Assembly (NCBI GenBank): GCA_947595585.1
Contig: CANQET010000001.1
Coordinates: 62,001-126,000, forward strand
Source: an uncultured Clostridia bacterium
GTDB lineage: Bacteria; Bacillota; Clostridia; Christensenellales; Borkfalkiaceae
Length of the DNA: 64,000 nucleotides
Direction: 5' to 3'
Under the pieces are notes generated by a model. That model was not told the origin of the DNA. It did not search any database and saw nothing but the letters and a program-made list of their open reading frames with translations. This document shows positions 44,437-62,508 of this stretch, piece by piece. Both the position numbers and the translations under genes were made by a program. Each line of letters begins with the position of its first letter. Within the stretch, counting starts at the first letter, position 1.

Positions 44437-44441
44437 GCAAA

Positions 44442-44471: not shown

Positions 44472-44684
44472 GACAGCCCGTGTTTTTCCGCAGCGCCGCA
44501 CGGCGCAAGAATATACCGTTTCGCCGCCGCCCATGCGCCCCGAACTCCTCCGAGCTTCCATAACGTGAGATTATGCTCATTTGGAGTGCTCTCCGCGCCG
44601 TTTGGCATGCTTTGTGTTTCTTCCTCGCTTTTTTTGTGAATTATGTACGAAATTGGTGCGAATTTTTGCCAAGTATAATTTTTT

Positions 44685-44712
44685 CTTATAGCAGGTATTT
44701 GTATAAAGAATG
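44685..44712 (+). promoter_or_regulatory. Conserved upstream box, copy 1
   Basis: A 28-bp element starting CTTATAG and containing the imperfect inverted repeat TTATAG-N9-GTATAA. It matches the box at 54281-54308 at 22 of 28 positions and ends exactly 40 bp before the -35. The rest of 44437-44684 shows no gene; a spare TATAAT lies at 44674-44679. Confidence 0.6.
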
Positions 44713-44752
44713 AAAGAAGGGTGCATAAATCTATATTTCGCGCGTGTTTCAT

Positions 44753-44782
44753 TTGACAGAAATCGCGCCTGCGTTGTATAAT
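44753..44782 (+). promoter_or_regulatory. Promoter of the giant LRR lipoprotein gene
   Basis: TTGACA (44753-44758), 18-bp spacer ending GCGTTG, TATAAT (44777-44782). Confidence 0.85.
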
Positions 44783-44813
44783 AATTGCAGACCAAAATAA
44801 AAGGAGTCAAAAT

Positions 44814-47800
44814 ATGAAGCGCAGAATTTTGATGATCGTATGTCTGATCTTCGCTTTCATGGGTGTAATGGCGTTTGTCGCCGGATGCACCGACGAGAAT
44901 GAAACTCCTGCCGCCGAGTCGGGCGAATATTATTACGACGCCGACGGGACGGAGTATCTTCTCACACTTGCAAAGGGCAATAAGTACACCCTCGTGATGG
45001 GCGACGACACATCGTCGGGCAGCTACGTCCTCGAGGGCGAGGCTTTGACCTTAAATCCTTCGGAGGGGGATCCCATGCTCGCAAGCTATGCGGGCACGTC
45101 GATCTCGTTGCCCTATGGCGACGCGACCTACAAATTCCTCAAGAAGGTCAACTTCACCGTGAAGTTCGAGACGGACGGCGGAACCAAGCTCCCCGATGTC
45201 TCCGTACTCAACGGGAAGACGATCGAGGCGCCTGCCGATCCCGCGAAGGACGGTAGTGCTTTCATCGGTTGGTATACCGATGTCTCCCACCGCACGGAGT
45301 TCTACTTCAGCCAGCCCATTACGGCCGATACGACGCTCTATGCCTATTTCGTCGCCAAGCTCGATCCCGAGTACACGGTAAAATTCGACCTCAACTACGA
45401 AGGCGCCGAGGAAGCGGATGCCCCCGCACCTCAGGAGACGGCGGGCCGCAAGCTCTACCGTCTGCCCGAGCCTGTGCGTGAGGACGGCGTGAAGTTCGTC
45501 GGTTGGTACGTGAGCCAGTTCGCTTCGGCAAGCAAGCTCACCTATGAATATACCGATCAGGTCCTCGCCGAGAACACGACGCTCTATGCCGTCTGGGATG
45601 AGAACGGCGCTCCCGTCGTCTCGCTCTCCGAGAGCGGCGTTGCGATCCGTGCAAGCGGCGCGAACAACAACTTCACGATCTCTATCACCGCCCCCGATGC
45701 CGAGGAGCCCGCGACGGGCCGTCAGTCCGGCAACGGGACCTATGCCTACGATTTCGCGGGCGGCGCAGGCGGCGAATACAAAGTGGAAGTCACCCTGAAC
45801 GGCAGAACGACGACGCGCTACTATAATAATAAAGCACTCGCGCGCGTATCTGTCTTCACCGTCGAAGAATCCACGCTGCTCTTCAACAGCGTCGAAAACG
45901 CAGAGCACTACTACCTTACCGTTGTCTGCGGTACGGAAGGCCACGTGCACAATGAGATCGATCTGAACACCGAGACGAGCTGGTCGTTCGCGGCTTGCGA
46001 TATGCGTGCGGGCGGCATCCTCTTCACCGTCAAGGCGACGGCGGAAGGGTACATCTCCTCCACGTCCGAGACGTTTACCTTCACGCGGACGCTCGATGCC
46101 GTCGAGAACGTCGCATACGACGCCGAGACGGGCAACATCACTTGGGACGCCGTCGAAAAGGCGACGGGGTACATCGTCAAGGTGACGAAGGGGGGCGAGG
46201 AGCTCTTCAACGAGAACATCGGCAACGCGCTCACCTTTGATTTCAAATCCTACGGCACCGGCGAATACACCGTGTCCGTGCAGCCTGTCGCCCGCGGTTG
46301 GATCCTTCCCGAAGCGAGCGAGTTTACCTGCACGAAGTCCCGCCTCGCGACCCCTTCGAACCTGCGCTTCAGCGGCACGGGCATCGTTTGGGATCCCGTC
46401 GAGGGCAACAAGGGCTACGAGATCGATTTCGACGGCCGTATCTATGATGCCGTCGGCACCTCGTTCGACTTCGCCGACCTCGTAGAAGGCAAGACCGAAT
46501 TCAAACTCTCCGTCCGCGCAAAGGGCACCGACGAAGCGACGAGCTCGCTCTGGTCGGATCCGCTCAGCGTCACCAATCAGATGGGTGAAGTGCGCTACGA
46601 CGGCGGAAAAGTCACATGGGACCCTGTCATCGGCGTCGAGACCTACCGCGTCGTGCTCAACGACGGCGAGCCCATCGAAGTCACCGACGGCAAGAACTCT
46701 TGCGCGATCACCTTCGATAAGAAGGGGACGAACACCATCGGCGTCATGGCCGTCTACAAGAACGGCTCGACTTCCGAACTCAAGACGACGGAGGTCGAAG
46801 TCTACGAACTCGTCTTCGAATCCGAGGGCGGCGATACGCTCGCCTCGCTGTTCGTCGCGGACGGCGATCCCATCAGTCTGCCCACGTGGATCAAGAAATA
46901 TGGCTACAAGTTCGGCGGTTGGTATACGGCGCCCAACGGCGGCGACGGCGAAGGCCTTCCCTATGAGGATAGATACTTCGACGGCAACTCCGATCGCTCG
47001 ATCTACGCCGCTTGGATCCCCAACGATATCACCGTCACCTTCAACCTCGGCAGATACGGCGATGCGGAGAGCTTCAAAGCGACCTCCGTCGTCGTCAAGT
47101 TCGGCGAGTCCTTCGAGCTCCCCGTGCCCGGTTGCTTGGATGCGACGCGCGTCTTCGAAGCATGGCGCCTCGATTCGGATGTCGGTATCCAGATCACGGA
47201 CTTCAAGGGGCAGAGCACACAGCCCTTCCTCTCCGATGCCGACGTCACGGTCTACGCCTCCTATCAGATGCTCTTCGCCTTTGAAGAGGTCGAAAACGGT
47301 TACCGCGTCAACAAGGGCCCCGCGATCGGCTACATCTCCGAAGTGACGATCCCCGCCTATGTCTCGATCGACAATGGCGAAAGAAAGCCCGTCGTCGACC
47401 TCGGCGATTTCTCCAACTGCACGACGCTTGTGCGCCTCTCCATCCCCGATACGGTGACGAACATCAACTTCGGCCTTACGGGCATATGCTTCACGGGTTG
47501 CACCAAGCTCCAATGGTGCGAAGTCTATGAAGTGGAAGAGAATACCGAAGAGAAGGTGTTCTCCTCGGCCAACGGCGTGCTCCTGCGCAAGAACAGCGCA
47601 ACGGGCGAGCTCGAGCTCCGCTATGTCCCCTATGGCATGACGGGCGTGCTCGATGTTCCCGACGGCGTCACCGCCATCGTCGAAGGTGCGTATTACGTGA
47701 GGTCCACCTACTCCAGCGGCGGCGACACCAGCGGCGGCATCACGCAGGTGAACATCCCCTCGAGCGTTACGAGGATCGCGCGCGGCGCCTTCTCCTTCAG

Positions 47801-50800
47801 CTCTTCGCTCCGTGAGATCTACTTCGAACCCGATGGCGATAAGGACGTTCAGCCGCTCACCATCGACCCGATGATGGTCTCCAACAACTACAAATACGAA
47901 CTCTACTACGAGCAGGGCACCTACATCTCCAACGGTTCTTACCTCTCGAAGATCACCCTGCCCAAGCGCATTGAGACGACCTTCACCGCCGAGACGCTCA
48001 TGTTGTTCCGCAGCCTTGCGGAGATCGAGATCGAAGAGGGCGGCAAGCTCAGCGTACAAAACGGGCTCGTCATCCGCGACAACGGCGCAGAGGGCAAGGA
48101 AGTCGTCTTTGCGGCCCCGCGCGGCGAAGGCGTGAAAGACGTCACCATTCCTTCGGGCGTCTTCAAGATCGGCGAGAAGGCCTTCTTCTACAACACCACG
48201 GTGCGCAACATCGTCATCCCCGAATGGGTCACGGAGATCGGCGCACGCGCGTTCGAAGGCTGCTATCTTGCCGACACCCTCAAGTTCGGGGGTACCGAAA
48301 CCAGCAATCCGCTTAAGATCGGCGAGAATGCCTTCTACCTCTTCTACTACCGCAGGTCGAAGCCCGAATCCGGTTCTTCCTCCTCGTCGGAGATTATGTC
48401 CTCGAACAATAAGGTGACCGAGCTTATCCTGCCCGCCAACCTCTATTCCATGGGCAATCGCAGCTTCGGCTCGATGTTGAAGTTGAAGGAAGTCACGGTC
48501 AACGCCGCCCTCGATAAAGTGGAATACGGCGAAGGCGCTTTCAACAACAATGTGGATAACGCCTATGTCGAGACGGTCAACCTCGGCGCGAAGTGCCCGA
48601 TGTTCGATGTCCCCGGCGTCTTCGGCAGATCCGTGAAGAAGGTCGTTGTCGACGAGGCCAACCCGAACTATTCGACGGACGATCAGGGCGTGCTCTTTGC
48701 AAAGGATAAAGAGAGCGGCAAGCGTTCCATCGCCTTCTTCCCGACGGCGTTTGAGGGCGACTACACGCTTCCCGAAGACGTCACCGAGATCCCCGCAAGC
48801 TGCTTCACCAGCCGCAACAGTCTCACGGGCATCACGCTCCACAGCAAGGTCTCGAAGATCGGCGACCAGGCATTCTATGATTGTAAGTTGCTCGCAAAAG
48901 TCACCTTCCTTCCGACGCCCGAGGGGCAGGACCCCGTAGAGCTCACGATCGGAGCAAGCGCCTTCTTCCGGTGCGTTCAGCTCAAAGAACTCTCGTTGCC
49001 CGAACGCGTGAAGACGCTCGGCGCCTCGGTATTCAAGGGTTGCTCGGCGCTCACCGAACTCGTGCTTCCCGCCTCCCTCGAGAAGATCGAGGCGACGACG
49101 ACGGGCTCCCCGATCGGCGCGATCGACGTCTTCGACGGCTGCGATTCTCTTTCCAAACTCACCGTGGCAGAGGGCAGCAAGAACTTTACAACGGTCGGCG
49201 GCGTGCTCTACCAACTCAAAGCCGTCTATAAAGATGGCTCCAGCAAAGAGAGCGAAAAGCCCGAATTCGACTATGTGCCTTATACCCTGCTCTACTGCCC
49301 TGTGGGCGTCAGCGGCACGGTCACCGTTCCCGGGTCCGTCCACGTCGTCGAAAAGTATGCCTTCAACTACTCCGATAAGGTCGAGAAGATCGTCTTCGAG
49401 AAGACCAAGGAATATCGCGCTCCCGGTGAGCCGACCGAGGAAGCGCCCGATCCCGCAGACGTCACCATCCCCGCAGAGATCGAGATCCTCGAGAATGCCT
49501 TCTACCACTGCGGCGGCTTGACCGAAGTCACCTTCGGGCAGGGCCTCAAGACGATGCGCACGAATATGTTCTACTCGTGCCTGAAGCTCGCGACCGTGAC
49601 GATCTCCAACACCGTCACGACCATCCAGCCCGATACGTTCTACGTCGGTAGCTCCTCCGGCGCTCTTGCGCACATCCTCTTTGAGGACGGCGGCAACGAT
49701 CCGCTCCGCATCGAGGACGGCACTCAGACGACCGCTGGCAGCGGCCCCGTCGATACCTACTACCACGGCGCCTTCGGCAACCTCGATAAGCTCGAAGAGA
49801 TCGAGTTCCCGAGCCGCCTTGCCTACCTCGGCAACAACGCCTTCCGTATGGATTCGCCCGGTCACAGCGTAGGCAAGAGCTCGCACCTCGCCTCCGTCAA
49901 GTTCAAGGCTCTGAAGGAAGGCATGACCCTCGAGATCGGCACGTATGTGTTCTACGGCGCACCGATCAGCGAGCTCGTCCTTCCCGAAGGGCTTAAGAAG
50001 GTCGGAAATTACGCCTTCTATTCGATCTCGGCGCGGGACAATGCGGGTTCGGTCACCCTTCCTTCTACGCTCGAAGAGATCGGCGACAACGCATTCTACT
50101 ATATACACTTCGCGGATGAACTCGTCATCCCCGCATCGGTCAGGACCATCGGCAAAGAGGCCTTCGCCCAGAACGCAACGCGTGCCACGGCGACGACGAA
50201 GATCACCTTTGCCGACAACAGCCAACTCGAATCCATCGGCAACTCCGCCTTCTCGAACTTCGTGAACGTCACGAGCTTCCAATTCAGTAAGAACGCCAAC
50301 GCGCAGGGCGAAGTCGCCGCGGCGGCAGAGACGGAGAATCGTGCGCTCTTCACTTTGGGCGCGAGCGTGTTCTCGGGTATGAAGAAGCTGCAATCCATCG
50401 AGCTTCCCGCTAACCTGACGAGCATTGCCGACAGCGCCTTCAGCGGGCTCACGGGCCTCACCTCCATCACGTGGGAGAGCCCCGAGAACAGTGCGATCAC
50501 CTCCATCGGCGCCTCTGCGTTCTCGAGGACGGGCATCAGCAAGTTCGCCTTCCCGAAGAACCCCGATAGTCCGATCAGCCTCGGCGCGAACCTCTTCATG
50601 TTCTGCGGCAAGCTGACGACCGTCTCGCTCTCGGCTTCCATCAACGATATCAACAACGTCTTCACGGGCTGCAGCGCCCTGCAGACCATCGAGATCGCCG
50701 AGGATAACACCTACCTCTCGAGCAAGCCGCCCATCATCTACAATGCGGCAGGCAATGTCGTCAAGTACGTGTGCGGCGCCTACAACAAGGATGAGGGTAT

Positions 50801-53800
50801 CTTCCAGATCCCCGAAGGCGGTACCGAGATCGGCGGCGGCGCATTCAACGGGCAGACCGAGATCGTCGAGATCCGCATCCCCGCCTCCGTCCAGAAGATC
50901 GGCGACAACGCCTTCGCAAACTGCGTCAGCCTCAAGAAGGTCGTCTTCGCGAACGGCAGCGTGCTCACCGAGATCGGAAAAACGGCGTTTCTGAACTGCG
51001 TTTCCCTCGAATCCATCAACCTCGAGGTCTGCGACCGTCTCGAAAAGCTCGGCGAAGGTTCGAGCACCGCCACGGCAGGTGGCGTGTTTTCGGGCTGCAA
51101 GAACCTCAAATCGCTGAAGTTCGGCGCAGGGATCACGACGCTCGGCGCCTACCAATTCGATTATCGCTGCTTCGTCGAAGAAGTCGATCTCTCGGCGTGC
51201 CTCAAGCTTCAGGAACTGCAGAATTCTCTTTTCCAAGATAATGTCTCGATCACGTCTGTGAAGCTCCCGTCTTCGCTCACCTACGTCGGTAGCTACACCT
51301 TCGATGGCTGCACCAACCTCTCGCGCGTCAACTCCGACGAAGAGGGGACGGTCGACCTCTCGGGGCTCGTCAACCTGCAGTACATGTATGGCTCGAAGCC
51401 CGGCTCGAGCTTCAAGCCCGAGACCTCGTCGGGAAGCTGCTACACCTTCCAGGATTGCACGTCGATCAAGAAGGCTATCCTGCCTCCCAACCTCGACCTG
51501 CTCGGCGGCTCCGCATTCAAGAACTGCACGAACCTCACCGAAGTGGTGGGCCTCGAAAACGTGCTCAACCTCGCGGGCAGCTCGATCTTCCAGAATACCG
51601 GGCTCACCTCGGTCACGATCGGCGAACGCACCAAGTCGCTTGGCACCTCGCTCTTCCAGGGCTGCGAGCGGCTCTCCTCGCTCACCTTCGAGAACCCCGA
51701 GAACTTCACCTCGCTGCCCGGTAGCCTCGTCAGGGATTGCCCGAGGATCACATCCTTCAACCTCGCGCAGTTCACCAAGGTCACCACGCTCAACACCTAT
51801 ATGCTCTCGGGTACGGGCATCACGAAGGCAGATCTCTCCTCCTTCAAGACGATCAAGTCGCTCCCGAACTACATGTTCCTGAACTGCACGCGTCTCACCG
51901 AAGTGATCCTGCCGACGACGGAAGACGGCGCCGCGCTCAACTACCTCGGCACCTACACCTTCCAGGGCTGCACGCGGCTCTCCAAGATCAACTCCGAGGA
52001 AGAGGGGACCTTCGATCTCTCCGGGATCAACCTCAGCTGCATCGGCACCTCTGCGACGTCGGCTTCCGACACGGCCAAAGCCTATACCTTCGATGGCTGT
52101 CAGGCCGTCAAGAAGGTCATCCTGCCCGAGAAGTGCACCAAGCTCGCAGGCTGGGTATTCAACAACTGTACGAGCCTTGCCGAGATCAACCTCGAGAAGG
52201 TCACGCAGATCGGCACCTACGCGTTCTCGAACACTGCCTTCACGTCGCTTGTCATCCCCAAGACGGTCACGAGCTGGGCAGAAGGTGCGTTCAAGGGCTG
52301 CGAGAAGCTCACCCGCGTACAGCTCGCTTCGGGCTTCACCTCCCTCGGGTCCAAGTGGATCTTCGCGGAGTGCCCCAAGCTCGCGGAAGTCATCGTCCCG
52401 ACGACGGTCACCCACCTCGGTACCTACACCTTCCAGAACGACGAGAAGCTCACGCGGATCGTCACGAGCGATAAGACGGGCACAGAGCTCGAGATCGAGA
52501 TCATGATGGTTCCCTTCGGCACCTTCGATCTCAGCAAGGCGACCAAGCTCACGCGGCTCTCCTCGGGCGCTTCGCAAAACGTCACGAGCGCGACTTCCTA
52601 CGATTCCTATGTCTTCGCAGGATGCCTCGGGCTCAGGCAGTTCAAAGCGGCTTCGACGTTCGCACAGATCTCCGGCTACGCCTTCGACGGCTGCTCCAAC
52701 CTCACGCGCTTCAACTCCGACGAAGAGGGGATGGCCGACCTTTCGAACATCACCAACATCGGGCGGTACGCCTTCCGCGGCACGGGAATCACCTCCGTCA
52801 CCCTCGGCAGCAAGCTCACGACGAATGTGTTCTATGCACCTTTCCAGGATTGCGAGAACCTCACCTCGATGACGCTCGAAGGCACCAATGCCAATGTGAA
52901 GGTCGAAAACGGCATGCTCATCAACGCCAAGACGAATGCCGTCATCATGGCGATCCCCAACCTTACGATCACCTCCGACGACGGTACGCTGAAGTTTACC
53001 GACGAGCTGGCACTCTCGAGCTACGCCTTCCAGGGTTCCCTCCACGGCGTCAACACGCTCGACCTCTCGGCGCTCACGATCACCTCGATCCCGACCTACG
53101 CCTTTGCGGATACGGGCTTCAAGAAGATCGTGCTTCCCGCGACGGTCACCTCGATCGGCAACTATGCCTTCCAGAACTCCGCGCTTACCGAGTTCACCGT
53201 CCCGAATACGGTCACTTCGATCGGCAATGGTGTATTCTACAACTGCAAGCAGCTCGAGACCGTCATCTTTGAGGACGGCGCACCCGAGGGCGCGGAAGAG
53301 ACGCTCGTCACGATCGGCGCAGGCGGCAGCAGCGCACCCAAGAACGACGGCAGCAGCGAGACCCGCGGCGTCTTCGAGGATAGCGGTGTGCAGAAGGTCG
53401 TCTTCCACCGCGTCGCCAAACTTCCCGTCCGCGGCTTTGCCAACGCGAAGTCCCTCACGACCATTGAGTTCGGCGATGAGATGACGGAGATCGGCGGCTA
53501 CTACACCTTCTATGGGTGCGATAGCTACACCTCGATCGAGATCCCCGCGACCGTCACGACGATCGGCGCCTATGCGTTCGCGTACTCCTGCTTCACGGAG
53601 GTCACGATCCCCGGCTCGGTCACCTCGATGAGCTCCAACACGTTTGCGAATAGCAAGGTCGTCTCCGTGACCTTCGAAGACGGCGATCCCGAAGCGACGC
53701 TTCCCACGACGATGTACAACACCTTCCGCGAATGTGCGGATCTCAAGAACGTCGACCTCGGCAACCGCTTCACGGTGCTCGCCTACGACTTCTTCACCGG

Positions 53801-54131
53801 CTGCACCTCGCTCGAGAAGCTCGTCATCCCCGAAGGCGTCACCCAGATCAACGGCATCTGCTTGGGCTGCACCTCGCTCACCTCGATTAGCCTTCCCGAG
53901 AGCCTCACGACGATCGGCGATACGCGCAACAACTTCGAGAACACGCCGCTTCTCAAGAACATCGAGATTCCCGCAGGCGTGAGCACCATCAACGCGAAGG
54001 CGTTCGTCGGCATGACGAAGGAGCAGACGGTCACCTTCAAGAGCACCCGTTTCGGCCTCGTGCAGGCGATGAACAGCGCGCTCTTTATCGCGAACTCCGA
54101 TGCGAACTTTGTGTTCGAACCCCTCGAATAA
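44814..54131 (+). CDS. Giant BspA-type leucine-rich-repeat lipoprotein
   Basis: 3105 residues. The signal peptide ends in the lipobox VAGC (C25), so the protein should be lipid-anchored outside the cell. After a small strand-rich domain come two InlB/Listeria-Bacteroides beta-grasp repeats (YTVKF...FVGWY...TTLYA) at about residues 120-265, several fibronectin III-like domains, and a further InlB-like repeat (YKFGGWYTAPNGG) near 700-735. From about residue 830 to the end it is a very long array of BspA/TpLRR repeats (IPxxVTxIGxxAFxxCxxLxxV). A larger unit around the motif NSDEEGTxDLS recurs near 51,300, 51,990, 52,530 and 52,710. AAGGAG precedes ATG 44814. Such proteins act in adhesion or ligand binding; the size is exceptional. 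It shares a promoter box with the MoxR/VWA operon downstream. Confidence 0.88.
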   Translation: MKRRILMIVCLIFAFMGVMAFVAGCTDENETPAAESGEYYYDADGTEYLLTLAKGNKYTLVMGDDTSSGSYVLEGEALTLNPSEGDPMLASYAGTSISLPYGDATYKFLKKVNFTVKFETDGGTKLPDVSVLNGKTIEAPADPAKDGSAFIGWYTDVSHRTEFYFSQPITADTTLYAYFVAKLDPEYTVKFDLNYEGAEEADAPAPQETAGRKLYRLPEPVREDGVKFVGWYVSQFASASKLTYEYTDQVLAENTTLYAVWDENGAPVVSLSESGVAIRASGANNNFTISITAPDAEEPATGRQSGNGTYAYDFAGGAGGEYKVEVTLNGRTTTRYYNNKALARVSVFTVEESTLLFNSVENAEHYYLTVVCGTEGHVHNEIDLNTETSWSFAACDMRAGGILFTVKATAEGYISSTSETFTFTRTLDAVENVAYDAETGNITWDAVEKATGYIVKVTKGGEELFNENIGNALTFDFKSYGTGEYTVSVQPVARGWILPEASEFTCTKSRLATPSNLRFSGTGIVWDPVEGNKGYEIDFDGRIYDAVGTSFDFADLVEGKTEFKLSVRAKGTDEATSSLWSDPLSVTNQMGEVRYDGGKVTWDPVIGVETYRVVLNDGEPIEVTDGKNSCAITFDKKGTNTIGVMAVYKNGSTSELKTTEVEVYELVFESEGGDTLASLFVADGDPISLPTWIKKYGYKFGGWYTAPNGGDGEGLPYEDRYFDGNSDRSIYAAWIPNDITVTFNLGRYGDAESFKATSVVVKFGESFELPVPGCLDATRVFEAWRLDSDVGIQITDFKGQSTQPFLSDADVTVYASYQMLFAFEEVENGYRVNKGPAIGYISEVTIPAYVSIDNGERKPVVDLGDFSNCTTLVRLSIPDTVTNINFGLTGICFTGCTKLQWCEVYEVEENTEEKVFSSANGVLLRKNSATGELELRYVPYGMTGVLDVPDGVTAIVEGAYYVRSTYSSGGDTSGGITQVNIPSSVTRIARGAFSFSSSLREIYFEPDGDKDVQPLTIDPMMVSNNYKYELYYEQGTYISNGSYLSKITLPKRIETTFTAETLMLFRSLAEIEIEEGGKLSVQNGLVIRDNGAEGKEVVFAAPRGEGVKDVTIPSGVFKIGEKAFFYNTTVRNIVIPEWVTEIGARAFEGCYLADTLKFGGTETSNPLKIGENAFYLFYYRRSKPESGSSSSSEIMSSNNKVTELILPANLYSMGNRSFGSMLKLKEVTVNAALDKVEYGEGAFNNNVDNAYVETVNLGAKCPMFDVPGVFGRSVKKVVVDEANPNYSTDDQGVLFAKDKESGKRSIAFFPTAFEGDYTLPEDVTEIPASCFTSRNSLTGITLHSKVSKIGDQAFYDCKLLAKVTFLPTPEGQDPVELTIGASAFFRCVQLKELSLPERVKTLGASVFKGCSALTELVLPASLEKIEATTTGSPIGAIDVFDGCDSLSKLTVAEGSKNFTTVGGVLYQLKAVYKDGSSKESEKPEFDYVPYTLLYCPVGVSGTVTVPGSVHVVEKYAFNYSDKVEKIVFEKTKEYRAPGEPTEEAPDPADVTIPAEIEILENAFYHCGGLTEVTFGQGLKTMRTNMFYSCLKLATVTISNTVTTIQPDTFYVGSSSGALAHILFEDGGNDPLRIEDGTQTTAGSGPVDTYYHGAFGNLDKLEEIEFPSRLAYLGNNAFRMDSPGHSVGKSSHLASVKFKALKEGMTLEIGTYVFYGAPISELVLPEGLKKVGNYAFYSISARDNAGSVTLPSTLEEIGDNAFYYIHFADELVIPASVRTIGKEAFAQNATRATATTKITFADNSQLESIGNSAFSNFVNVTSFQFSKNANAQGEVAAAAETENRALFTLGASVFSGMKKLQSIELPANLTSIADSAFSGLTGLTSITWESPENSAITSIGASAFSRTGISKFAFPKNPDSPISLGANLFMFCGKLTTVSLSASINDINNVFTGCSALQTIEIAEDNTYLSSKPPIIYNAAGNVVKYVCGAYNKDEGIFQIPEGGTEIGGGAFNGQTEIVEIRIPASVQKIGDNAFANCVSLKKVVFANGSVLTEIGKTAFLNCVSLESINLEVCDRLEKLGEGSSTATAGGVFSGCKNLKSLKFGAGITTLGAYQFDYRCFVEEVDLSACLKLQELQNSLFQDNVSITSVKLPSSLTYVGSYTFDGCTNLSRVNSDEEGTVDLSGLVNLQYMYGSKPGSSFKPETSSGSCYTFQDCTSIKKAILPPNLDLLGGSAFKNCTNLTEVVGLENVLNLAGSSIFQNTGLTSVTIGERTKSLGTSLFQGCERLSSLTFENPENFTSLPGSLVRDCPRITSFNLAQFTKVTTLNTYMLSGTGITKADLSSFKTIKSLPNYMFLNCTRLTEVILPTTEDGAALNYLGTYTFQGCTRLSKINSEEEGTFDLSGINLSCIGTSATSASDTAKAYTFDGCQAVKKVILPEKCTKLAGWVFNNCTSLAEINLEKVTQIGTYAFSNTAFTSLVIPKTVTSWAEGAFKGCEKLTRVQLASGFTSLGSKWIFAECPKLAEVIVPTTVTHLGTYTFQNDEKLTRIVTSDKTGTELEIEIMMVPFGTFDLSKATKLTRLSSGASQNVTSATSYDSYVFAGCLGLRQFKAASTFAQISGYAFDGCSNLTRFNSDEEGMADLSNITNIGRYAFRGTGITSVTLGSKLTTNVFYAPFQDCENLTSMTLEGTNANVKVENGMLINAKTNAVIMAIPNLTITSDDGTLKFTDELALSSYAFQGSLHGVNTLDLSALTITSIPTYAFADTGFKKIVLPATVTSIGNYAFQNSALTEFTVPNTVTSIGNGVFYNCKQLETVIFEDGAPEGAEETLVTIGAGGSSAPKNDGSSETRGVFEDSGVQKVVFHRVAKLPVRGFANAKSLTTIEFGDEMTEIGGYYTFYGCDSYTSIEIPATVTTIGAYAFAYSCFTEVTIPGSVTSMSSNTFANSKVVSVTFEDGDPEATLPTTMYNTFRECADLKNVDLGNRFTVLAYDFFTGCTSLEKLVIPEGVTQINGICLGCTSLTSISLPESLTTIGDTRNNFENTPLLKNIEIPAGVSTINAKAFVGMTKEQTVTFKSTRFGLVQAMNSALFIANSDANFVFEPLE

Positions 54132-54163
54132 GGCAAAATAGGCCGATTCGGCGCAGCAAAAGT

Positions 54164-54193
54164 CCTCCGCGGCAGCAAACCCTGCCGCGGAGG
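54164..54193. terminator. Perfect 12-bp hairpin after the giant gene
   Basis: CCTCCGCGGCAG (54164-54175) pairs with CTGCCGCGGAGG (54182-54193). No T-run follows, so it may protect the 3' end or terminate weakly. No gene is seen in 54132-54419. Confidence 0.55.
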
Positions 54194-54280
54194 CAAATTC
54201 GTAAAACAAACTGAAATTATGCCGCGTTTCCCGCAAAATCGGGGAAACTATATGCGAAAACCATGTATATATAACTTCTG

Positions 54281-54308
54281 CTTATAGGGGGTATATCTAT
54301 AAACTATG
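54281..54308 (+). promoter_or_regulatory. Conserved upstream box, copy 2
   Basis: A 28-bp element starting CTTATAG with the perfect inverted repeat TTATAG-N9-CTATAA. It ends exactly 40 bp before the -35, as does copy 1 at 44685-44712. Confidence 0.6.
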
Positions 54309-54348
54309 GAAAATACGCAGATTCCTTGGGTTTTTCGCCGCGTTTCAA

Positions 54349-54378
54349 TTGACAGATTTTCGCTTTACGTTGTATAAT
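54349..54378 (+). promoter_or_regulatory. Promoter of the MoxR/VWA operon
   Basis: TTGACA (54349-54354), 18-bp spacer ending ACGTTG, TATAAT (54373-54378). The core resembles the promoter at 44753-44782, including the CGTTG before the -10. Confidence 0.85.
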
Positions 54379-54419: not shown

Positions 54420-55586
54420 ATGGAACAGAATCTTTTCAAAAAGTATCACGATAAGCTCTTCCGCGAAAGCGTCTTGAAAGCCTGCCTGTGCGGGCTGATC
54501 ATCGGCGGCGGCGTGCTTGCCGTAACGGCGCTTCTTTCGTGGCTCTTCGGCTTCAAAGCGGGGCTGTTTTTGGCGCTCGGGCTCGGCGTAGCCTCGGGCG
54601 TTGCATCCGGATTCCTCTTCTACCGTTTTAAGTTCCGCCCGACGACGCGTGCGATCGCAAAGCGCGTGGATGAGCTCGGCCTCGAAGAGCGTCTTCTCAC
54701 CATGATCGAGCTCGAGAACGACGATAGCTACATGGCCCGTCTTCAGCGCGAAGACGCCCAGAAGGCGATGTCCCGTCTCGATCCGATGCTCCTCAAAGTC
54801 GCCGTCTCCGTATCGCTCATCGTGGCGGTCGCGGCGGTCGGCGTGTGCGGCGTGGGCATGACGACGGTCGGCTCGCTCTACTATGCGGATGCCATCCCGA
54901 GCGGCGTCGAACTTCTCTCCAAAGAGGAAGTCGTATTGCACACCTTCGAGTGCACGTACTCGGTCTATAAGGAGTATGCCAATGAGAAAGAAGTGAGGGG
55001 GTACATCGTCGAATACAACGGCGGAGATTACAGCCTCATCCTCGACGGCACGGATTCCATCAGCTACACCATCGATGAAGGCGGCTCCTCGCCCGCGATC
55101 TATGCGGTCCCTGCGGCGGGTTACGTCTTCACAGGTTGGACGGACGGCGGCAAGAGCCCTTACCGTATCGATGAAAACATCTCCCAGCCCATCGTGGCCT
55201 CGGCTATGTTCGAGCCCGTGCAGGATACGCTCGGCGGCGATTATGTCATCGATGAGCTCCCGAAGGGGAACGACGACAATGACGACAGCTTCCCGCCGCC
55301 TCCCGATTCTCCGCCTACGGATCCTACACCGCCTTTGCCCAACGATAAGAATTATTCGCACGATTCGGCCGATCAGCAGATCACCAACGGCAATACCTAC
55401 TACGGCGATGAACTCGGGAATGCACAGCAGAACACTTCGGACCGCTTCGATCAGGACGGCAATATTCCCGACAACATGAAGGATCTCGTAGGGGATTATT
55501 ACGACGGCATCGATAAGGGCAACAACGGCTCCGGCAGCGGCTCGGGCTCGGGCGGCTCGGATGCGGGATCTTCCGGCGGGAACTGA
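54420..55586 (+). CDS. Membrane protein with extracytoplasmic disordered tail, first gene of the MoxR/VWA operon
   Basis: 388 residues. Two adjacent helices (about 22-65) are followed by a charged cytoplasmic segment (RPTTRAIAKRVDELGLEERLLTMIELEND) and a third helix (about 120-145). The segment before the third helix resembles the N-terminal part of DUF4175-like proteins found beside MoxR/DUF58 genes; this is a weak likeness. The outer part includes an InlB-like motif (GYVFTGWTDGG) and a long Asp/Pro/Gly/Ser-rich disordered tail. AAGGAGG precedes ATG 54420. The moxR gene follows after 175 nt with hairpins between. Function unknown. Confidence 0.7.
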   Translation: MEQNLFKKYHDKLFRESVLKACLCGLIIGGGVLAVTALLSWLFGFKAGLFLALGLGVASGVASGFLFYRFKFRPTTRAIAKRVDELGLEERLLTMIELENDDSYMARLQREDAQKAMSRLDPMLLKVAVSVSLIVAVAAVGVCGVGMTTVGSLYYADAIPSGVELLSKEEVVLHTFECTYSVYKEYANEKEVRGYIVEYNGGDYSLILDGTDSISYTIDEGGSSPAIYAVPAAGYVFTGWTDGGKSPYRIDENISQPIVASAMFEPVQDTLGGDYVIDELPKGNDDNDDSFPPPPDSPPTDPTPPLPNDKNYSHDSADQQITNGNTYYGDELGNAQQNTSDRFDQDGNIPDNMKDLVGDYYDGIDKGNNGSGSGSGSGGSDAGSSGGN

Positions 55587-55761: not shown

Positions 55762-56760
55762 ATGGTAACAGAAAACGACATCAAGCAGTTCAGTCAGCAG
55801 TGCAACGACATCTTCGAGCAGATCGCTCGCGATGTGATCGGGCAGGAGCCCGTCGTGCAAGGCACCGTGATCGCGATGATCGCGGGCGGCAACGTCCTCT
55901 TGGAAGGCGTCCCCGGCGTCGGCAAGACGAGACTTGTGCGCACCTTGGGCAGAGTGTTCGATCTGCCCTTCTCGCGTATCCAGTTTACGCCCGACCTCAT
56001 GCCCGCGGACGTGACGGGTACCAACATCATCGTCAAAGACGAGGCAGGCAACTCGAAGTTCTCCTTCCAGCCCGGTCCCGTGTTCGCGAACATCGTCCTC
56101 GCCGATGAGATCAACCGTGCGACGCCCAAGACGCAGTCCGCGCTCCTCGAGGCGATGCAGGAGCATACCGTCACCGTCATGGGTGTCTCGAGAAAGCTCT
56201 CCGAGCCGTTCTTCGTCCTCGCGACGCAGAACCCCATCGAGCAGGACGGCACCTATCCGCTTCCCGAAGCGCAGATGGACCGCTTCATGTTCAAGCTGCT
56301 CGTGCCCAATCCCTCGCTCGATGAGCTCATGCAGATCGTCTCCATGACACAGAAGACGATGGAGGAAGTTGCGGACAAGGTCTGCACGGGCGAACAGCTC
56401 CTCAGGATGCGTGCGACAGCCAATCAGATCCCCGTCGCCGAGGAAGTGCTCAAGTATGCGATGATCCTCACTTCCGCCACCCATCCCGACAGCGAATGCG
56501 CCACGGAGACTTCCAAGAAGTATGTGCGCGTCGGTGCTTCCCCCCGTGCGGGGCAGGCGCTCATCTCGGCCGCCAAGGTCATGGCGCTCATCAAGGGGAG
56601 ATTCAACGTCGCCTACTCGGATCTCGCCGAACTCGCATATCCCGTGCTCCGTCACCGCATCAAGCTCAACTTCGAGGCGGTCGCAGAGCGTATCTCCGCA
56701 GATGAGATCATCCGCATGATCCTCGGAGAAGTCGATAAAAAATACAAGAAACAACTCTAA
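55762..56760 (+). CDS. MoxR-family AAA+ ATPase
   Basis: 332-residue MoxR ATPase. Walker A is LLEGVPGVGKTRLV, Walker B is IVLADEINRATPKTQSALLEAMQE, sensor 1 lies in FVLATQNPIEQDGTYPLPEAQ, and the C-terminal lid contains VRVGASPRAGQALI. MoxR proteins act as chaperones that assemble or activate VWA-domain complexes, and the next three genes encode exactly such partners. ATG 55762 is chosen with AAGGA about 8 nt upstream. It is separated from the DUF58 gene by 15 nt. Confidence 0.93.
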   Translation: MVTENDIKQFSQQCNDIFEQIARDVIGQEPVVQGTVIAMIAGGNVLLEGVPGVGKTRLVRTLGRVFDLPFSRIQFTPDLMPADVTGTNIIVKDEAGNSKFSFQPGPVFANIVLADEINRATPKTQSALLEAMQEHTVTVMGVSRKLSEPFFVLATQNPIEQDGTYPLPEAQMDRFMFKLLVPNPSLDELMQIVSMTQKTMEEVADKVCTGEQLLRMRATANQIPVAEEVLKYAMILTSATHPDSECATETSKKYVRVGASPRAGQALISAAKVMALIKGRFNVAYSDLAELAYPVLRHRIKLNFEAVAERISADEIIRMILGEVDKKYKKQL

Positions 56761-56775: not shown

Positions 56776-57672
56776 ATGAAGATCACTTGCTTAAACGACG
56801 CCTTCTTCAGCCGTCTCGAGACGCTTTCGCTCAACCTCCGCTCCAACCTTGCGGGGTACTTCGGGGGAAAGCATCTCGTGAAGACGTATGGTCAGACCGT
56901 CGAATTCGCGGACTTCAGAGAATACCAGCTCGGCGACGACATCCGCCGCATCGACTGGAACCTCTTCAGCCGCTTCGAAAAATATTTCCTCCGCCTCTTC
57001 ACCGATGAACGGCAGATGCAGGTGCAGGTCTTTCTGGATTGCTCGGGGTCGATGGGCAAAGAGAACCCCGGGAAGGCATCTTATTGCGTCGCGGCGGCCG
57101 CTGCGATCGGCTTTTTGGCCGTACAGAGCATGGATAAGCTCTCCTTCCAGTTCATGCGGGGGAACGTCTCGGAGAACCCCTTCGGCACCATCGTGGGGAA
57201 GAATTCCTTCTTCCGTGCGGTGGGCGGCCTGCAGGAGCTCACTTTCGACGGCGACACGGATATCGAAGCCTGCGTGACGCAGGTCTCGGATACGGGAGAT
57301 CACAACGGCATTTCCGTCATCATATCCGACTTTTTCACCGAAAATTGGAAGAAGGCGGTGGATTATCTCGCCTACAAAAAGCGGCAGGTGCTGCTCTTGC
57401 AGGTCTTGACGCCCGATGAGATCGAGCCCGTCTACGATGGACGGGTCCATATGCTCGATTCCGAAGCGGTCGATGCTTCCGACCCTAAAAACATGAAGCT
57501 CACCATCTCGCGCGGTATGCAGAAGGCATATGCGGAGACGCTCGCGGAGTACATGAGCGATATCCGTACGTTCTGCGCAAAGCGCGAGGCGGGGTATATT
57601 TCCGTATCCACGGAGCATCCCATCGAACAGGTCCTGTTCGGGGAGTTGCTCAAGACAGGTGTCATGTCATGA
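56776..57672 (+). CDS. DUF58-domain protein
   Basis: 298-residue cytoplasmic protein with the DUF58 signature FADFREYQLGDDIRRIDWNLFSRF (residues about 44-67) and a VWA-like continuation with the MIDAS-type motif FLDCSGSMGK. DUF58 proteins are almost always encoded beside moxR and VWA genes and are thought to be MoxR partners. The Shine-Dalgarno is weak (CAGGG). The TGA overlaps the next ATG. Confidence 0.9.
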   Translation: MKITCLNDAFFSRLETLSLNLRSNLAGYFGGKHLVKTYGQTVEFADFREYQLGDDIRRIDWNLFSRFEKYFLRLFTDERQMQVQVFLDCSGSMGKENPGKASYCVAAAAAIGFLAVQSMDKLSFQFMRGNVSENPFGTIVGKNSFFRAVGGLQELTFDGDTDIEACVTQVSDTGDHNGISVIISDFFTENWKKAVDYLAYKKRQVLLLQVLTPDEIEPVYDGRVHMLDSEAVDASDPKNMKLTISRGMQKAYAETLAEYMSDIRTFCAKREAGYISVSTEHPIEQVLFGELLKTGVMS

Positions 57673-59669
57673 TGAAGCTACTGCTCCCGCTCGGACTGTT
57701 GGGGCTGCTCGGCGTCCTTGCGCTCATCATCATCTATATCATCAAGCCGAACTACCAGACGAAGCACGTCTCCTCGACCTTCGTGTGGCAGCTCAGCTTG
57801 AAGAAACGGCGGCGGATCCCGATCTCGAAGATCAGGAATCTGTTGGTCTTCCTATGCCAGATCCTGATCCTCACGGGGATCGGTCTCACCCTTGCGCAGC
57901 CCGTCATCTACCACGAGAACGAATCGGATAAGACGGATATCATCGTCATCCTCGATTCCTCCGCGAGCATGCGCGCGCGCGATGAAGACGGGAAGACCCG
58001 CTTCGAACGTGCCATTGCGGCGGCGAAGAGCCGTTGCGATTCTGTCACGGGAGCAGGGGGGTATGCCACGCTCATCTTTGCCGATGAATCTCCCCGCGTC
58101 CTCGCATCGCGGATCTCTTTGCGGGACCGCTCGATCCTCAATGCGGAATTCGAGAAACTTCAGGATGCGGCGGAAGAGGAAGATTACTACCAAGGCGATG
58201 TCTACGACGAGCAGACTCTCGCCTATATGTGTTCCTACGGCACCTCGAATATCGACGCGGCGATCGAACTCGCCAAGGACGTCCTCTCCGTCAACCCCAA
58301 TGCGACGATCAGCCTCTACACGGATACGACGTACGCGGCACCCGGGTCGGTGGAGATCGTGAACGTCGCCAAGGCGGGGGAGTGGAACGCCGCCATCCTC
58401 GATGCAGAGGCGACGATCGTCGAAGGCTACTGCGAACTCACGGTCGACGTCGCCTGCTACGGCAGAGACGAGCTCTCTTTGGACCTCGAGATCACCGTAG
58501 AGAACCCCAACACCTATGATGCGAGCGAGATCGCTCCGCCGATCACCATCCACACGCAGGTCGCCTGCTCCCGCGATGAGCCCAAGCGCCTCGTCTTCTG
58601 CAGGGCGAAGGGGACGGACAGCACGGTGGAATATATCCAGCTGGGCGCGGGGGAGCAGTTCTACAGCTATTCCTCCATCCACATCCAAGTCGATGCGGGC
58701 GAGGAAGACAGCTACACGAGCGACGACAACTTCGATCTCTACGGCGGACACAAGGAAGTCATCCGCGTGCAGTATGCTTCGCTTCTGCCCAACGCCTTCG
58801 TCAACACCGCGCTCGATACCTTGCGGCGGCGGCTCGCCGATCGTTGGGATATCCAGATCACCGAAGTCCAGCTCGGGAAATCTCCCGCCATGGATGGGTT
58901 CGATCTCTATATCTTCGAGCATTACGAACTGAATGCTTTCCCGACGGACGGCGCCGTGATCGTGCTCGACCCCGTGGATCTTCCCGCCTCCTCGGGGCTC
59001 AGAGTCCTCGGGAGAGCGACGAGCACGAACGGGGATATCTACCTCGAAAGCAGCATCTCCAGCCCCGTCACCAACGCGATGAAGATCGGCGAGATCACGA
59101 TACAGGCATTCCGTCAGCTGCAGTATAACTCGGATTACGAAATGCTCATGGAAGCCACGCCGCAGCACTATCCCATGTTGCTCGTGCGCAACGACGGGCC
59201 CGATAAAGTCGCGGTGGTCTCCTTCAGCGTACACTACTCGAACATCGCCATTCTTCCCGAGTGGATGTTCCTTTGGGCCAACCTCATGAATTACTTCTTC
59301 CCCTCGACGGTGGAGGGGACCTCCTTCGAAGTCAACGAGGCGATTCCCGTCAACGCCCGTGGGGACAAGGTCGTATATTCGGGGCAGGATGAACCGCTCA
59401 CGAAGTTCCCGACCTCCGTCATCCCGCGGCTCCCCGGGACCTATACCTTCGAACTCGATACGTATTACGGCCAGAAGACGAAGACGAGCGTCTATGTGAA
59501 GACGCCCGCCGCCGAAAGCAACCTCTTCAACGTGGAATACGAGCTCAACGATCCCTATGGAAATTGGGAATTTGCCGATAGCTACGACGACCTCCTCATC
59601 TGGTTTGCCGCGGCGCTCGTCGCCTTCCTGTTCCTCGAATACTGGCTGCAGGGCCGTCAGGCGAAGTGA
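57669..59669 (+). CDS. BatA-like VWA membrane protein
   Basis: 666 residues. The N-terminus (LLLPLGLLGLLGVLALIIIYIIKP, then a second helix near 60-80) matches the BatA N-terminal membrane domain. A VWA domain follows with intact MIDAS DSSAS (VILDSSASMRARDED) and TSNIDAAIELAKDVL. A long beta-rich extracytoplasmic region ends in a C-terminal helix (LIWFAAALVAFLFLEYWLQ). Metal-dependent protein binding outside or at the membrane is expected. ATG 57669 overlaps the DUF58 stop (ATGATG, alternative 57672). Confidence 0.85.
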   Translation: MMKLLLPLGLLGLLGVLALIIIYIIKPNYQTKHVSSTFVWQLSLKKRRRIPISKIRNLLVFLCQILILTGIGLTLAQPVIYHENESDKTDIIVILDSSASMRARDEDGKTRFERAIAAAKSRCDSVTGAGGYATLIFADESPRVLASRISLRDRSILNAEFEKLQDAAEEEDYYQGDVYDEQTLAYMCSYGTSNIDAAIELAKDVLSVNPNATISLYTDTTYAAPGSVEIVNVAKAGEWNAAILDAEATIVEGYCELTVDVACYGRDELSLDLEITVENPNTYDASEIAPPITIHTQVACSRDEPKRLVFCRAKGTDSTVEYIQLGAGEQFYSYSSIHIQVDAGEEDSYTSDDNFDLYGGHKEVIRVQYASLLPNAFVNTALDTLRRRLADRWDIQITEVQLGKSPAMDGFDLYIFEHYELNAFPTDGAVIVLDPVDLPASSGLRVLGRATSTNGDIYLESSISSPVTNAMKIGEITIQAFRQLQYNSDYEMLMEATPQHYPMLLVRNDGPDKVAVVSFSVHYSNIAILPEWMFLWANLMNYFFPSTVEGTSFEVNEAIPVNARGDKVVYSGQDEPLTKFPTSVIPRLPGTYTFELDTYYGQKTKTSVYVKTPAAESNLFNVEYELNDPYGNWEFADSYDDLLIWFAAALVAFLFLEYWLQGRQAK

Positions 59670-59677
59670 GGTGAGCG

Positions 59678-62506
59678 ATGCATAATTTCGGTATAATCTT
59701 TCTACATCCTTGGCTGTTGCTGCTCATCATCCCCGCGATCGCGCTCACGCTCATCCCGTATTTCCTTCTGAACAAGCGCTACCGCAGAACGCGCAACCGC
59801 ATCATCTCGATGGTGCTGCACAGCATCGTCATGGTGCTCGTCATCTTCGTGCTTGCGGGCATCACCTTCACCTATCAGGTCAACAACCTCGAGAACGAAG
59901 TGATCGTGCTCGTCGACGTCTCGGATACACAGGAAGACGTCGCCGAGCGCCGCGACGAATTCGTGGAGCGCGTGCTCTCGGAAGGCGGCTACGATGGGTT
60001 CAAGATGGGCGTCGTGCTCTTTGGCTTCACGCAGAAAGAGGCCGTGGGGCTCTCCTTTGAGACGGAGCTCCTCTACGATCGATATCAAGAGGCCCTCGCG
60101 GGCGTCTTGCCCGATACTACGGCGACGGATATCGCCGCGGCGCTCGAATATACGGCAAGCCTCTTCAACTATCCCGCATCGGCCAAGATCGTGCTCGTGA
60201 CCGACGGTGCGGAGACCGATGAGAATGCGCTCGATGCTGTCCGCAGCGTCACGGCGCGGGGGATCCGTATCGATACCGTCTACCTCGCGGGCGGACTTAT
60301 GGGGGACAGCGTGCGGGTCACGAACATCATCTTCCCCGAGACCCACATCGATATCAACCAAGAAGCCACGCTCATGGTGCAGGTCGAATCCTTGGCCGCA
60401 AGCAGCGGCAGCTCCTGCGACGTCGTCTTCTCGGACAACGGTGAGGAGATCGCACGGCAGCAGCTCGCGATCACGGGGGGCATCCAGCTCGTTCCCTTCA
60501 CCCATACCTTCACCGAGGGCGGTCTGCACGAGATCACGGCGACGATCGACAGCCGCGGCGACCTCATCCCCCAGAACAACTCCTACCGCGCATGTCTCCA
60601 CGTGGAGAGCTTCACGAAGATCGCCATCCTCGAGAGCGCAACGGGCGCCTCGCAGCCCATCAGCGAGCTCCTCGCCTCGGAGGAGACGGTGGAATACGAC
60701 GTAAAGCAGTTTTTGATCAACGAAGACAGCGCCCCGCACACCGTCGACGATCTGCGTGCCTACGATCAGATCATTCTGAACAATATCGCCCCTTCGGATA
60801 TGCCCGAAGGGTTCGATGAAGCGCTCTATTCCTATGTCTATGACTACGGCGGCGGCGTCTTCACCGCGGGCGGCGACGACGCCGCGGGCAGCCCCCACGG
60901 CTACAACCGTGCCGAGATGGCGGGCGATACCGTCTACGACGATATCCTTCCCGTCGAAGTCATCAACTACACCCCGCCGCTCGGCGTCATGATCATCGTC
61001 GACGTCTCGGGCTCGATGTCTTCGGTCCAGCCCGATGGAAAGAGCAAGCTCGCATGGGCGAAAGAGGGGGCCGCGCAGTGCCTCGATATCCTCACCGAAC
61101 GCGATTTCGTCGGCCTCATGACGCTCGGCAGCACCTACGGCTTCGTCCTTCCGCTCACCCGCCGTACGCAAGAGGATGCCATCCGCGATGCCATCCGCAA
61201 TATCGACGGCAACGGCGGCACCGAATTTGCGCCCGCGGTCGAACGTGCGGGATTTGCCCTCAACAGCGAGGACCGCGTCGATAAGCGGCACATCATCATC
61301 GTGACCGACGGCGAACCCGCCGACGACGATGCCTTCCTCGAATGCGTCGATACCTATACGCAGTCGGGGATCACCTTCTCGCTGCTCGTCATCGGCCCCG
61401 AAAACCAGCTGTGCACGGATTTCAAGGCACACGGCGGGCACGTCTATGTTGCCAATTCGGCCTTCGAATGCGTCTCGCAGATGACGGAGGACCTCCAGGC
61501 CAAGGCCGTCGAGGAATCGAAAACAGAGGAATTCCATCCCCTCATCGCGGATACGCTCTCTCCCGTCGTCGCAGGCGTGAATTACGGCGGCGTGGAAGGC
61601 ATGAGCGACCGTGCCATGCAGGCGACCCTCGGCGGGTTCTACGGCACCAAGATCAAATCGGACGCCAAGGTCATCCTTCAGGGCGAATACGATGTCCCCA
61701 TCTACGCACAGTGGAAGTTCGGCAAGGGCTCCGTCGGCAGTTTCCTCTGCGATATCGGAGGAAAGTGGTCGGGCGGGTTCCTCGCGGACGCGGACGGGCG
61801 GCGCTTGCTGCTCAATGCGATCGCCAACCTCATGCCGCTCGAGAACATCCGCGTGCAGAACATCGATTACAAATTCCAAGAGGAAAACTATATCAACGAA
61901 CTCAGTGTTTCCCCCCGCAAAGCGCTCGAAAGCGGGGAGAAGCTGCGGGGGCAGATCGTATATACCGACCCCGAGACGAAGGAAGAGGTCTCGGTGCCCC
62001 TCGACGGAAGCAAAAACCGCGCAGATTGCTACATCAAACTGCCGCTCGACAGCACTTCGGGCTATTCCCGCTGCGACTTCGTCGTGACCCTCCCCGGGCT
62101 CTATCATATCCTGATCGAGCGCGTCGATGCAGGAGGGAACGTCGTAGAGAACAGCACGCTCGAATTCTACAAAGTCTTCTCCTATTCCAAGGAATACGGC
62201 GAAGCGACGGTGGAGGGCGTAGAAGTGCAGGATCCCCAAGTATTCCTCTCCACGCTCGCGCTAAGGGGCGGCGGGAACACCGTGAGCATCGAAGAGCCGT
62301 GGAACGTGTTCCTCGACTTTGTTACGGATCTCGACCGCACGTTCGATCCCCGCTGGATCCTCTTGATCGTGGCGATGGTGCTCTTCCTGCTCGATATCAT
62401 TGTAAGAAAATTCAAATTCAAATGGATCCACGAGATCGTGCGCGAACGCAAAGAGCAAAAGGAAAAGGCGGGCGCGAACGGCCGTGGAGGTAAGCAAGGA
62501 GGATGA
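59678..62506 (+). CDS. Double-VWA membrane protein with GATase1-like domain
   Basis: 942 residues. Two N-terminal membrane helices are followed by a first VWA domain (VLVDVSDTQED; the third MIDAS Ser is replaced by Thr) at about 85-205. A beta-sandwich follows, then a class-I glutamine-amidotransferase-like region (YDQIILNNIAPSDMP...GGGVFTAGGDDAAG) at about 320-410 without an obvious catalytic Cys. A second VWA with canonical DVSGSMSS and GTEFAPAVERAG lies at about 440-610. A further beta-rich region and a C-terminal helix (WILLIVAMVLFLLDIIV) complete it. Domain order resembles large VWA/GATase1 proteins associated with MoxR. It starts 8 nt after the previous gene. Confidence 0.85.
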   Translation: MHNFGIIFLHPWLLLLIIPAIALTLIPYFLLNKRYRRTRNRIISMVLHSIVMVLVIFVLAGITFTYQVNNLENEVIVLVDVSDTQEDVAERRDEFVERVLSEGGYDGFKMGVVLFGFTQKEAVGLSFETELLYDRYQEALAGVLPDTTATDIAAALEYTASLFNYPASAKIVLVTDGAETDENALDAVRSVTARGIRIDTVYLAGGLMGDSVRVTNIIFPETHIDINQEATLMVQVESLAASSGSSCDVVFSDNGEEIARQQLAITGGIQLVPFTHTFTEGGLHEITATIDSRGDLIPQNNSYRACLHVESFTKIAILESATGASQPISELLASEETVEYDVKQFLINEDSAPHTVDDLRAYDQIILNNIAPSDMPEGFDEALYSYVYDYGGGVFTAGGDDAAGSPHGYNRAEMAGDTVYDDILPVEVINYTPPLGVMIIVDVSGSMSSVQPDGKSKLAWAKEGAAQCLDILTERDFVGLMTLGSTYGFVLPLTRRTQEDAIRDAIRNIDGNGGTEFAPAVERAGFALNSEDRVDKRHIIIVTDGEPADDDAFLECVDTYTQSGITFSLLVIGPENQLCTDFKAHGGHVYVANSAFECVSQMTEDLQAKAVEESKTEEFHPLIADTLSPVVAGVNYGGVEGMSDRAMQATLGGFYGTKIKSDAKVILQGEYDVPIYAQWKFGKGSVGSFLCDIGGKWSGGFLADADGRRLLLNAIANLMPLENIRVQNIDYKFQEENYINELSVSPRKALESGEKLRGQIVYTDPETKEEVSVPLDGSKNRADCYIKLPLDSTSGYSRCDFVVTLPGLYHILIERVDAGGNVVENSTLEFYKVFSYSKEYGEATVEGVEVQDPQVFLSTLALRGGGNTVSIEEPWNVFLDFVTDLDRTFDPRWILLIVAMVLFLLDIIVRKFKFKWIHEIVRERKEQKEKAGANGRGGKQGG

Positions 62507-62508
62507 TC

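Follow-up and report, generated by a model that had tools for sequence, protein, structure and literature searches.

Background

GlnR and TnrA of the Bacilli use a 17-bp inverted repeat, TGTNA-N7-TNACA, as their box, and one described site lies 58 bp upstream of the -35 hexamer (PMC6191146). For CRP in E. coli, class I operators are listed at -61.5, -71.5, -82.5 and -92.5 (PMC11894529). In Bacillus cereus, PlcR governs most extracellular virulence factors, and its palindrome, TATGnAnnnnTnCATA, is found upstream of many genes (PMC2464732). Boxes of the type ATAA, TTAT and TATT are given for CcpC, which requires both dyad regions for binding at citB (PMC8514465).

The open-access literature was searched for the palindrome treated here (TATAAGTA/TACTTATA; CTTATA/TATAAG together with a regulon), and for a BspA-like/glutamate dehydrogenase regulon with a palindrome in Clostridia; none of these gave a matching description among the matches listed, which for TATAAGTA/TACTTATA were the best 15 of 628. 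For BspA together with MoxR, nothing relevant was present among the best 10 of 14 matches. To our knowledge, the role of MoxR/DUF58/VWA operons and of giant BspA-type LRR proteins in such bacteria is poorly understood.

Here we analyse the putative control regions of a giant LRR gene and of the MoxR operon behind it in an uncultured Clostridia bacterium. Both lie in a window of 64,000 nucleotides (the whole stretch of DNA that was analysed). What is conserved is a 17-bp dyad, TATAA-N7-TTATR, repeated in tandem 22 bp further on. Like the GlnR/TnrA box, as given in the cited account, this is a 17-bp inverted repeat with an N7 centre, and nitrogen metabolism is represented among its targets. Unlike it, the half-sites are TATAA/TTATR (G to A and C to T), the units stand in tandem, and many of the targets are surface or secreted proteins. 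Neither the TGTNA-N7-TNACA box nor a MerR-type regulator was found here, the genome having no match to MerR_1 at E 0.1. Like the CRP class I operators listed above, the dyads take up discrete positions 5' of the core promoter that differ by about one turn. CRP half-sites are TGTGA-N6-TCACA, with an even centre; the centre of the dyad is odd, the units are in tandem and the cores are near consensus. As in the PlcR regulon, an AT-rich palindrome precedes many genes and extracellular proteins are among the targets, but the PlcR site, in the form cited, is 16 bp long and has another half-site. We know of no tandem phasing for PlcR. The ATAA and TTAT boxes cited for CcpC also recur in the dyad, but this genome has no LysR_substrate match and the targets differ.

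Results and discussion

The LRR/MoxR locus

The features of the locus are listed in Table 1. An open frame of 3038-3231 aa is found at the place of the giant LRR gene in all six relatives fetched over this locus (6/6). Beyond the window, the LRR protein that overlaps the last gene of the operon is followed, in the same direction, by a Flg_new-repeat protein and then by gdhA (L214:6640-8094). Counterparts of both genes behind the operon, judged by position, size and N-terminus, occur in the four relatives compared downstream (G076, G029, G024 and G045). Behind these, gdhA comes next in G076 (L286:8903-10443) but not in G029 or G024; the G045 contig ends there. Searched with its N-terminal 189 aa, the giant LRR protein has matches at 1e-8 in 68 of 103 genomes, 48 of which match at the start of the protein and the rest in the repeat region only. 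The genomes compared in this work belong to one genus and are hence not independent.

Table 1. Positions in the window of the putative control elements and of the genes of the LRR/MoxR locus
Feature	Position	Strand	Remarks
Dyad A1, TATAA-N7-TTATA	44674..44690	+	putative operator unit 1 of the LRR gene; 79 bp before -35
Dyad A2	44696..44712	+	weaker unit, 22 bp downstream of A1; EM motif
Core promoter A, TTGACA-N18-TATAAT	44753..44782	+	
Giant BspA-type LRR protein, 3105 aa	44814..54131	+	lipoprotein-like N-terminus (by eye)
GC-rich hairpin, LRR gene/operon intergenic	54164..54193	.	terminator-like on - strand only
Dyad B1, TATAA-N7-TTATA	54270..54286	+	putative operator unit 1 of the MoxR operon; 79 bp before -35
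Dyad B2	54292..54308	+	weaker unit, 22 bp downstream of B1; EM motif
Core promoter B, TTGACA-N18-TATAAT	54349..54378	+	
Operon gene 1: membrane protein (by eye), divergent InlB B-repeat domain	54420..55586	+	
MoxR-type AAA ATPase	55762..56760	+	domain scan from 55720
DUF58 protein	56776..57672	+	
BatA-like VWA protein	57669..59669	+	
VWA protein	59678..62506	+	GATase1-like match below cut-off
LRR protein, lipoprotein-like N-terminus	62503..64000	+	overlaps the last gene of the operon; extends beyond window

A GerA-type spore germination three-gene set (window 40774-44580) is divergent from the LRR gene. Three relatives (G039, G095 and G059) carry two to three copies of the LRR gene, some of which each have a copy of operon gene 1 behind them. 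A search of the whole window against Rfam at gathering thresholds gave no match.

Two boxes upstream of two promoters

The preliminary description of this DNA drew attention to two boxes (44685-44712 and 54281-54308). Direct alignment agrees with it that these are identical at 22 of 28 positions, that each ends 40 bp before the -35 hexamer (starting at 44753 in A and 54349 in B) and that both cores are TTGACA-N18-TATAAT with CGTTG immediately 5' of the -10. The 40 bp between box and -35 are identical at merely 18 of 40 positions.

A degenerate 23-mer fitting both boxes matches only A and B in the window when up to three mismatches are allowed, and gave no match in 100 shuffles. In the complete genome (1.69 Mb) it finds a single additional site with three mismatches (C2:108458), which also lies 5' of a consensus promoter and contains a dyad (8/10) starting 69 bp before the -35. 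As a control, 67 other consensus promoters were compared in the same register. Five of the 2,211 pairs reach 22/28: two contain dyads themselves and three are promoters of like loci. Chance likeness of the two boxes is rejected on the strength of the 23-mer scans, the shuffles and the excess of dyads in LRR promoters (see below).

It had been proposed that the box should recur before related genes. What recurs 5' of the LRR genes of the genus is the dyad element, whereas the box as originally drawn is present, at up to three mismatches, in only 5 of 101 genomes; outside this genome it occurs with one mismatch in G076 only.

A tandem of 17-bp dyads

We collected the upstream stretches of 62 LRR genes and of 58 copies of operon gene 1. 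The dyad and phase statistics concern 58 of the 62 LRR stretches, the four without a 6/6 -35 hexamer being left out, and a dyad was called strong if it has at least 9 of 10 matches to TATAA-N7-TTATR. There are 56 strong dyads, spread over 41 of the 58 promoters, compared with a mean of 3.6 (sd 2.0, maximum 11) in 300 rounds of dinucleotide shuffling of the same sequences; 17 promoters have no strong dyad. The EM motif obtained from the upstream stretches also consists of two units 22 bp apart. At A and B the first unit starts 11 bp upstream of the original box, which comprises the right half of the first dyad plus the second dyad, and at both places the second unit is the weaker.

Positions that do not enter the score mirror each other in the 50 dyads from tandem pairs: G is found at position 6 in 34 and C at position 12 in 35, while A is found at position 8 in 30 and T at position 10 in 34. 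Because these columns mirror each other, they argue for the dyad being a true palindrome, with TATAAG-N5-CTTATA as its probable best form. The inverted repeat TTATAG-N9-(C/G)TATAA noted previously is present but straddles two units. As the unit it is replaced by the register of the dyad, as given by the dyads of the LRR promoters, the EM motif and the mirrored columns.

A strong dyad was found in one of 21 other TTGACA promoters from loci that had not been fetched by motif; of 67 other promoters that form a mixed set with motif-fetched loci included, 11 have dyads. The single exact dyad occurs nine times in this genome (at six places, two inside genes) and the reversed control seven times. Since the single dyad is not enriched over this control, specificity rests on the tandem and on the promoter context. 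In a collection of 84,980 species genomes, exact tandem dyads were found in ten stretches. Three of these belong to two Clostridia MAGs, RGIG2219 and RGIG5591, obtained from the colon of goat and sheep, and the remaining seven are taken for chance.

Helical phase with the promoter

In the LRR promoters, dyad starts cluster near -37, -47, -59, -69 and -79 relative to the -35, so that the distance shifts in steps of about 10.6 bp. For helical repeats of 10.5-10.75 bp, R is about 0.80 and none of 20000 random placements was as good. Dyads A and B, like the dyad of the LRR gene in G076, start at -79; the operon dyad of G076 is about one turn further out, and that of G087 is one turn nearer the promoter. 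The preliminary description treated the 40-bp spacing as a signature. This does not hold, since the spacing changes in whole helical turns among relatives, and the identical spacing at A and B is one register among several. In both the LRR genes and the other targets described below, the positions of the putative operator 5' of the -35 differ by whole helical turns, as in class I regulation. The best reading of such whole-turn positions would be a regulator that acts together with RNA polymerase on a single DNA face.

A wider set of putative targets

A sequence-only model was built from 29 sites (25 LRR and four MoxR operon). It used 29 of 65 EM rows, mostly the best; four rows that outscore the lowest row used were omitted (G036, G099, G039_C31 and G048_C15). 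The model was scanned on this genome, on 14 relatives and, with stricter filters, on 44 relatives, 20 of which gave a match at 0.003. In this genome A and B are the best matches (E 2.5e-5, at G000:C1:106671-106715, and 9.1e-5). A third site precedes a subtilase with LRRs (Pfam; E 0.006) and weaker sites (E 0.17 to 1.25) precede two lipoprotein-like genes. In the relatives, sites equal in strength to those of LRR genes precede lipoproteins, subtilase-like proteins and gdhA, and two GltB-like and two TrpB-like genes (by eye) also lie behind such sites. The target proteins of relatives were named by eye from their N-termini, Pfam being used for the proteins of this genome only. In G029, closely similar small lipoprotein-like genes (L179 and L181) each have their own dyad at -70.

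We examined 58 sites rather than every match: 29 from the scan of 14 relatives, six from this genome (one of which came from the degenerate 23-mer and not from the model) and 23 from the scan of 44 relatives. Thirty combine a strong dyad with a promoter (score 10.5) no more than 115 bp away, eight have a promoter without a strong dyad and 20 have no promoter of this score within that distance. For the 30 complete cases R is 0.79, with a phase of 4.97 bp compared with 5.10 bp for the LRR promoters, and none of 20000 random placements was as good; the phase test covered 38 of the sites and was then repeated with all 58. This agreement in phase is the strongest single result of the analysis, because the model had been built without any of these promoters.

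The preliminary description proposed one dedicated regulator. The element shared by the giant LRR gene and the MoxR operon supports a putative common regulator for the two, but 'dedicated' is not supported, the element being found before lipoprotein, subtilase and gdhA genes as well.

Fifteen subtilase-type sites were checked further downstream and 12 have a TTGAC(A/G)-N17/18-TATAAT core. Relative to it, dyads start at -192 to -195 in eight (that of this genome included), at -202/-203 in three and at -214 in one. One of the remaining sites has no core and two have weaker cores, at -121 and -232. Of the 20 sites that lack a near promoter, this distant class accounts for 12, and eight are left unexplained. 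The distant class also moves in whole-turn steps, for which 10.25 bp fits best. At 10.6 bp it shows no clear phase agreement with the near class, the outcome depending on which helical repeat is assumed. Examples are L209, L196 and L204, together with nine more subtilase-type sites.

Strong dyads precede gdhA (444 or 446 aa) in nine of the 59 genomes scanned with the model, and all nine are in phase, between -37 and -70. The tandem before gdhA of G076 is weaker (8 and 7 of 10); it stands 5' of a core TTGCAA-N17-TATAAT, at -69, which is also the register of several of the nine. In the present genome gdhA occupies the corresponding place behind the cluster, but the 120-bp gap before it contains neither a promoter nor a recognisable tandem dyad (best 6 and 5 of 10), and for that reason this gene may now depend on promoter B. 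Between promoter B and this gdhA the only other promoter with at least 5+5 matches lies within the gene preceding gdhA, and promoter B may drive everything through gdhA.

Probable coupling of the MoxR operon to the LRR gene

The 58 upstream stretches of the operon fall into several groups. In 21, the open frame upstream ends 123-164 bp before the operon, and this gap contains a hairpin and no 5+5 promoter match. A further 13 also have no promoter, with other gap lengths, although one of these (G087) was mis-measured, its promoter lying upstream of a chance frame end. A promoter-like match is present within the gap in 16, and eight were not measurable. The short promoterless gap in 21 of 58 ties the LRR gene and the MoxR operon together, and in many relatives the two are probably co-transcribed. 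The gap is 288 bp in this genome and 324 bp in G076 and in both contains a hairpin of this kind together with a second operator-promoter, and the operon here probably has a separate copy of the control region. G082 and G087 also have a dyad before the operon promoter; no such tandem dyad was recognised at the operon promoters of other relatives among the 58 upstream stretches.

The 106-nt stretch containing the intergenic hairpin is well folded in this genome, with a z of -4.6. Such a hairpin is found in many relatives, with differing stem sequences and without a T-run on the coding strand, and is perhaps a processing or attenuation element.

Proposed mechanism and alternatives

We consider it probable that each box belongs to an operator recognised by a homodimeric regulator, which would act in class I style, most likely as an activator, on a surface/secretion regulon together with gdhA. 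Protein binding and activation are what we infer from the dyads, their symmetry, tandem period and phase and the genes behind them, all of which are read from the DNA. Each operator would consist of two 17-bp palindromes about two turns apart, where two dimers could bind on one face. It would stand upstream of a strong sigma-A-type promoter, in one of several whole-turn registers, and the regulator would most likely contact RNA polymerase from upstream. Activator-dependent promoters seldom have cores this close to consensus, and the regulator may therefore repress instead. At the subtilase genes, the operators lie some twelve turns further out and would need looping. The MoxR/DUF58/VWA operon would be expressed along with the giant LRR protein, in many relatives through apparent read-through and here from a second operator-promoter, the ends of these transcripts being predicted.

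The shared operator would imply a joint deployment of the MoxR/DUF58/VWA operon and the giant LRR protein, and may point to a connection with nitrogen or amino-acid status. More tentatively, there may be a global regulator outside the LysR, MerR and Lrp groups, so far undescribed, in a large genus of gut Clostridia. It would couple glutamate metabolism (gdhA, perhaps gltB) to LRR proteins, subtilases and MoxR/VWA proteins through tandem palindromes that shift by whole turns.

Genes of 60-420 aa in the 61 fetched loci were inspected by eye and no recurring regulator gene was found beside the sites; single LytTR-, ArsR-, MarR-, DeoR-, XRE- and WYL-like genes occur. Beyond gdhA, this genome encodes a HisKA_3 kinase and, about 4 kb out, a NarL-type response regulator (L214:10907-12780 for the pair), and the latter is kept across the genus. 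That this NarL/LuxR-type protein (L214:12136-12780) is the regulator, with the dyad as its operator, we regard as unlikely. NarL-type regulators have inverted heptamers as binding sites, which was counted in favour of this candidate together with its position and a match in 98 of 103 genomes, mostly as one high-identity copy. Such near-universal presence does not discriminate, however, and suits any core regulator equally. In addition, the 16 kb surrounding the gene contain no strong dyad, in G076 it is on a different contig from the LRR locus, and four relatives (G036, G049, G065 and G090) have dyads but no NarL orthologue, for which incomplete assemblies could account.

Intrinsic DNA shape is a distinctly improbable explanation. 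Phased AT-rich bends or UP-like contacts, acting with no dedicated protein, could also give helical phasing and AT richness, but the mirror-image G and C columns, the excess of dyads over dinucleotide shuffles of the same sequences and the sites 192-214 bp out all speak against it.

We give even less credence to promoter B being simply a duplicate of A, with a likeness due to descent and a box that plays no part in regulation. B and its promoter are indeed extra in this genome and in G076, as the longer gaps indicate. Duplication nevertheless leaves unexplained the same-phase dyads before unrelated genes and the higher identity of the boxes (22/28) than of the neighbouring stretch (18/40). It may be how B arose, though not the whole account.

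That one of the known regulators of nitrogen or carbon metabolism, GlnR/TnrA (MerR), CcpC (LysR) or Lrp (AsnC), owns the operator is mostly refuted and scarcely credible: despite the geometry shared with the cited GlnR/TnrA box, the resemblance of the cited CcpC boxes to the dyad half-sites and the suitability of gdhA as a target, this genome has no match to LysR_substrate (PF03466, E 0.01), MerR_1 (PF13411, E 0.1) or AsnC_trans_reg (PF01037, E 0.1), while each search gave a match in 12 of 14 control genomes, and only a gene in a missing part of the assembly could rescue this reading.

The many related promoters also provide a natural series of whole-turn spacings in which face-of-helix control is directly testable. 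In the operon promoters of G095, G049, G059 (C46) and G029, the -35 is TTGACG and is preceded by another shared motif, roughly TATACATGT and then TTATAA, which possibly points to a second regulator.
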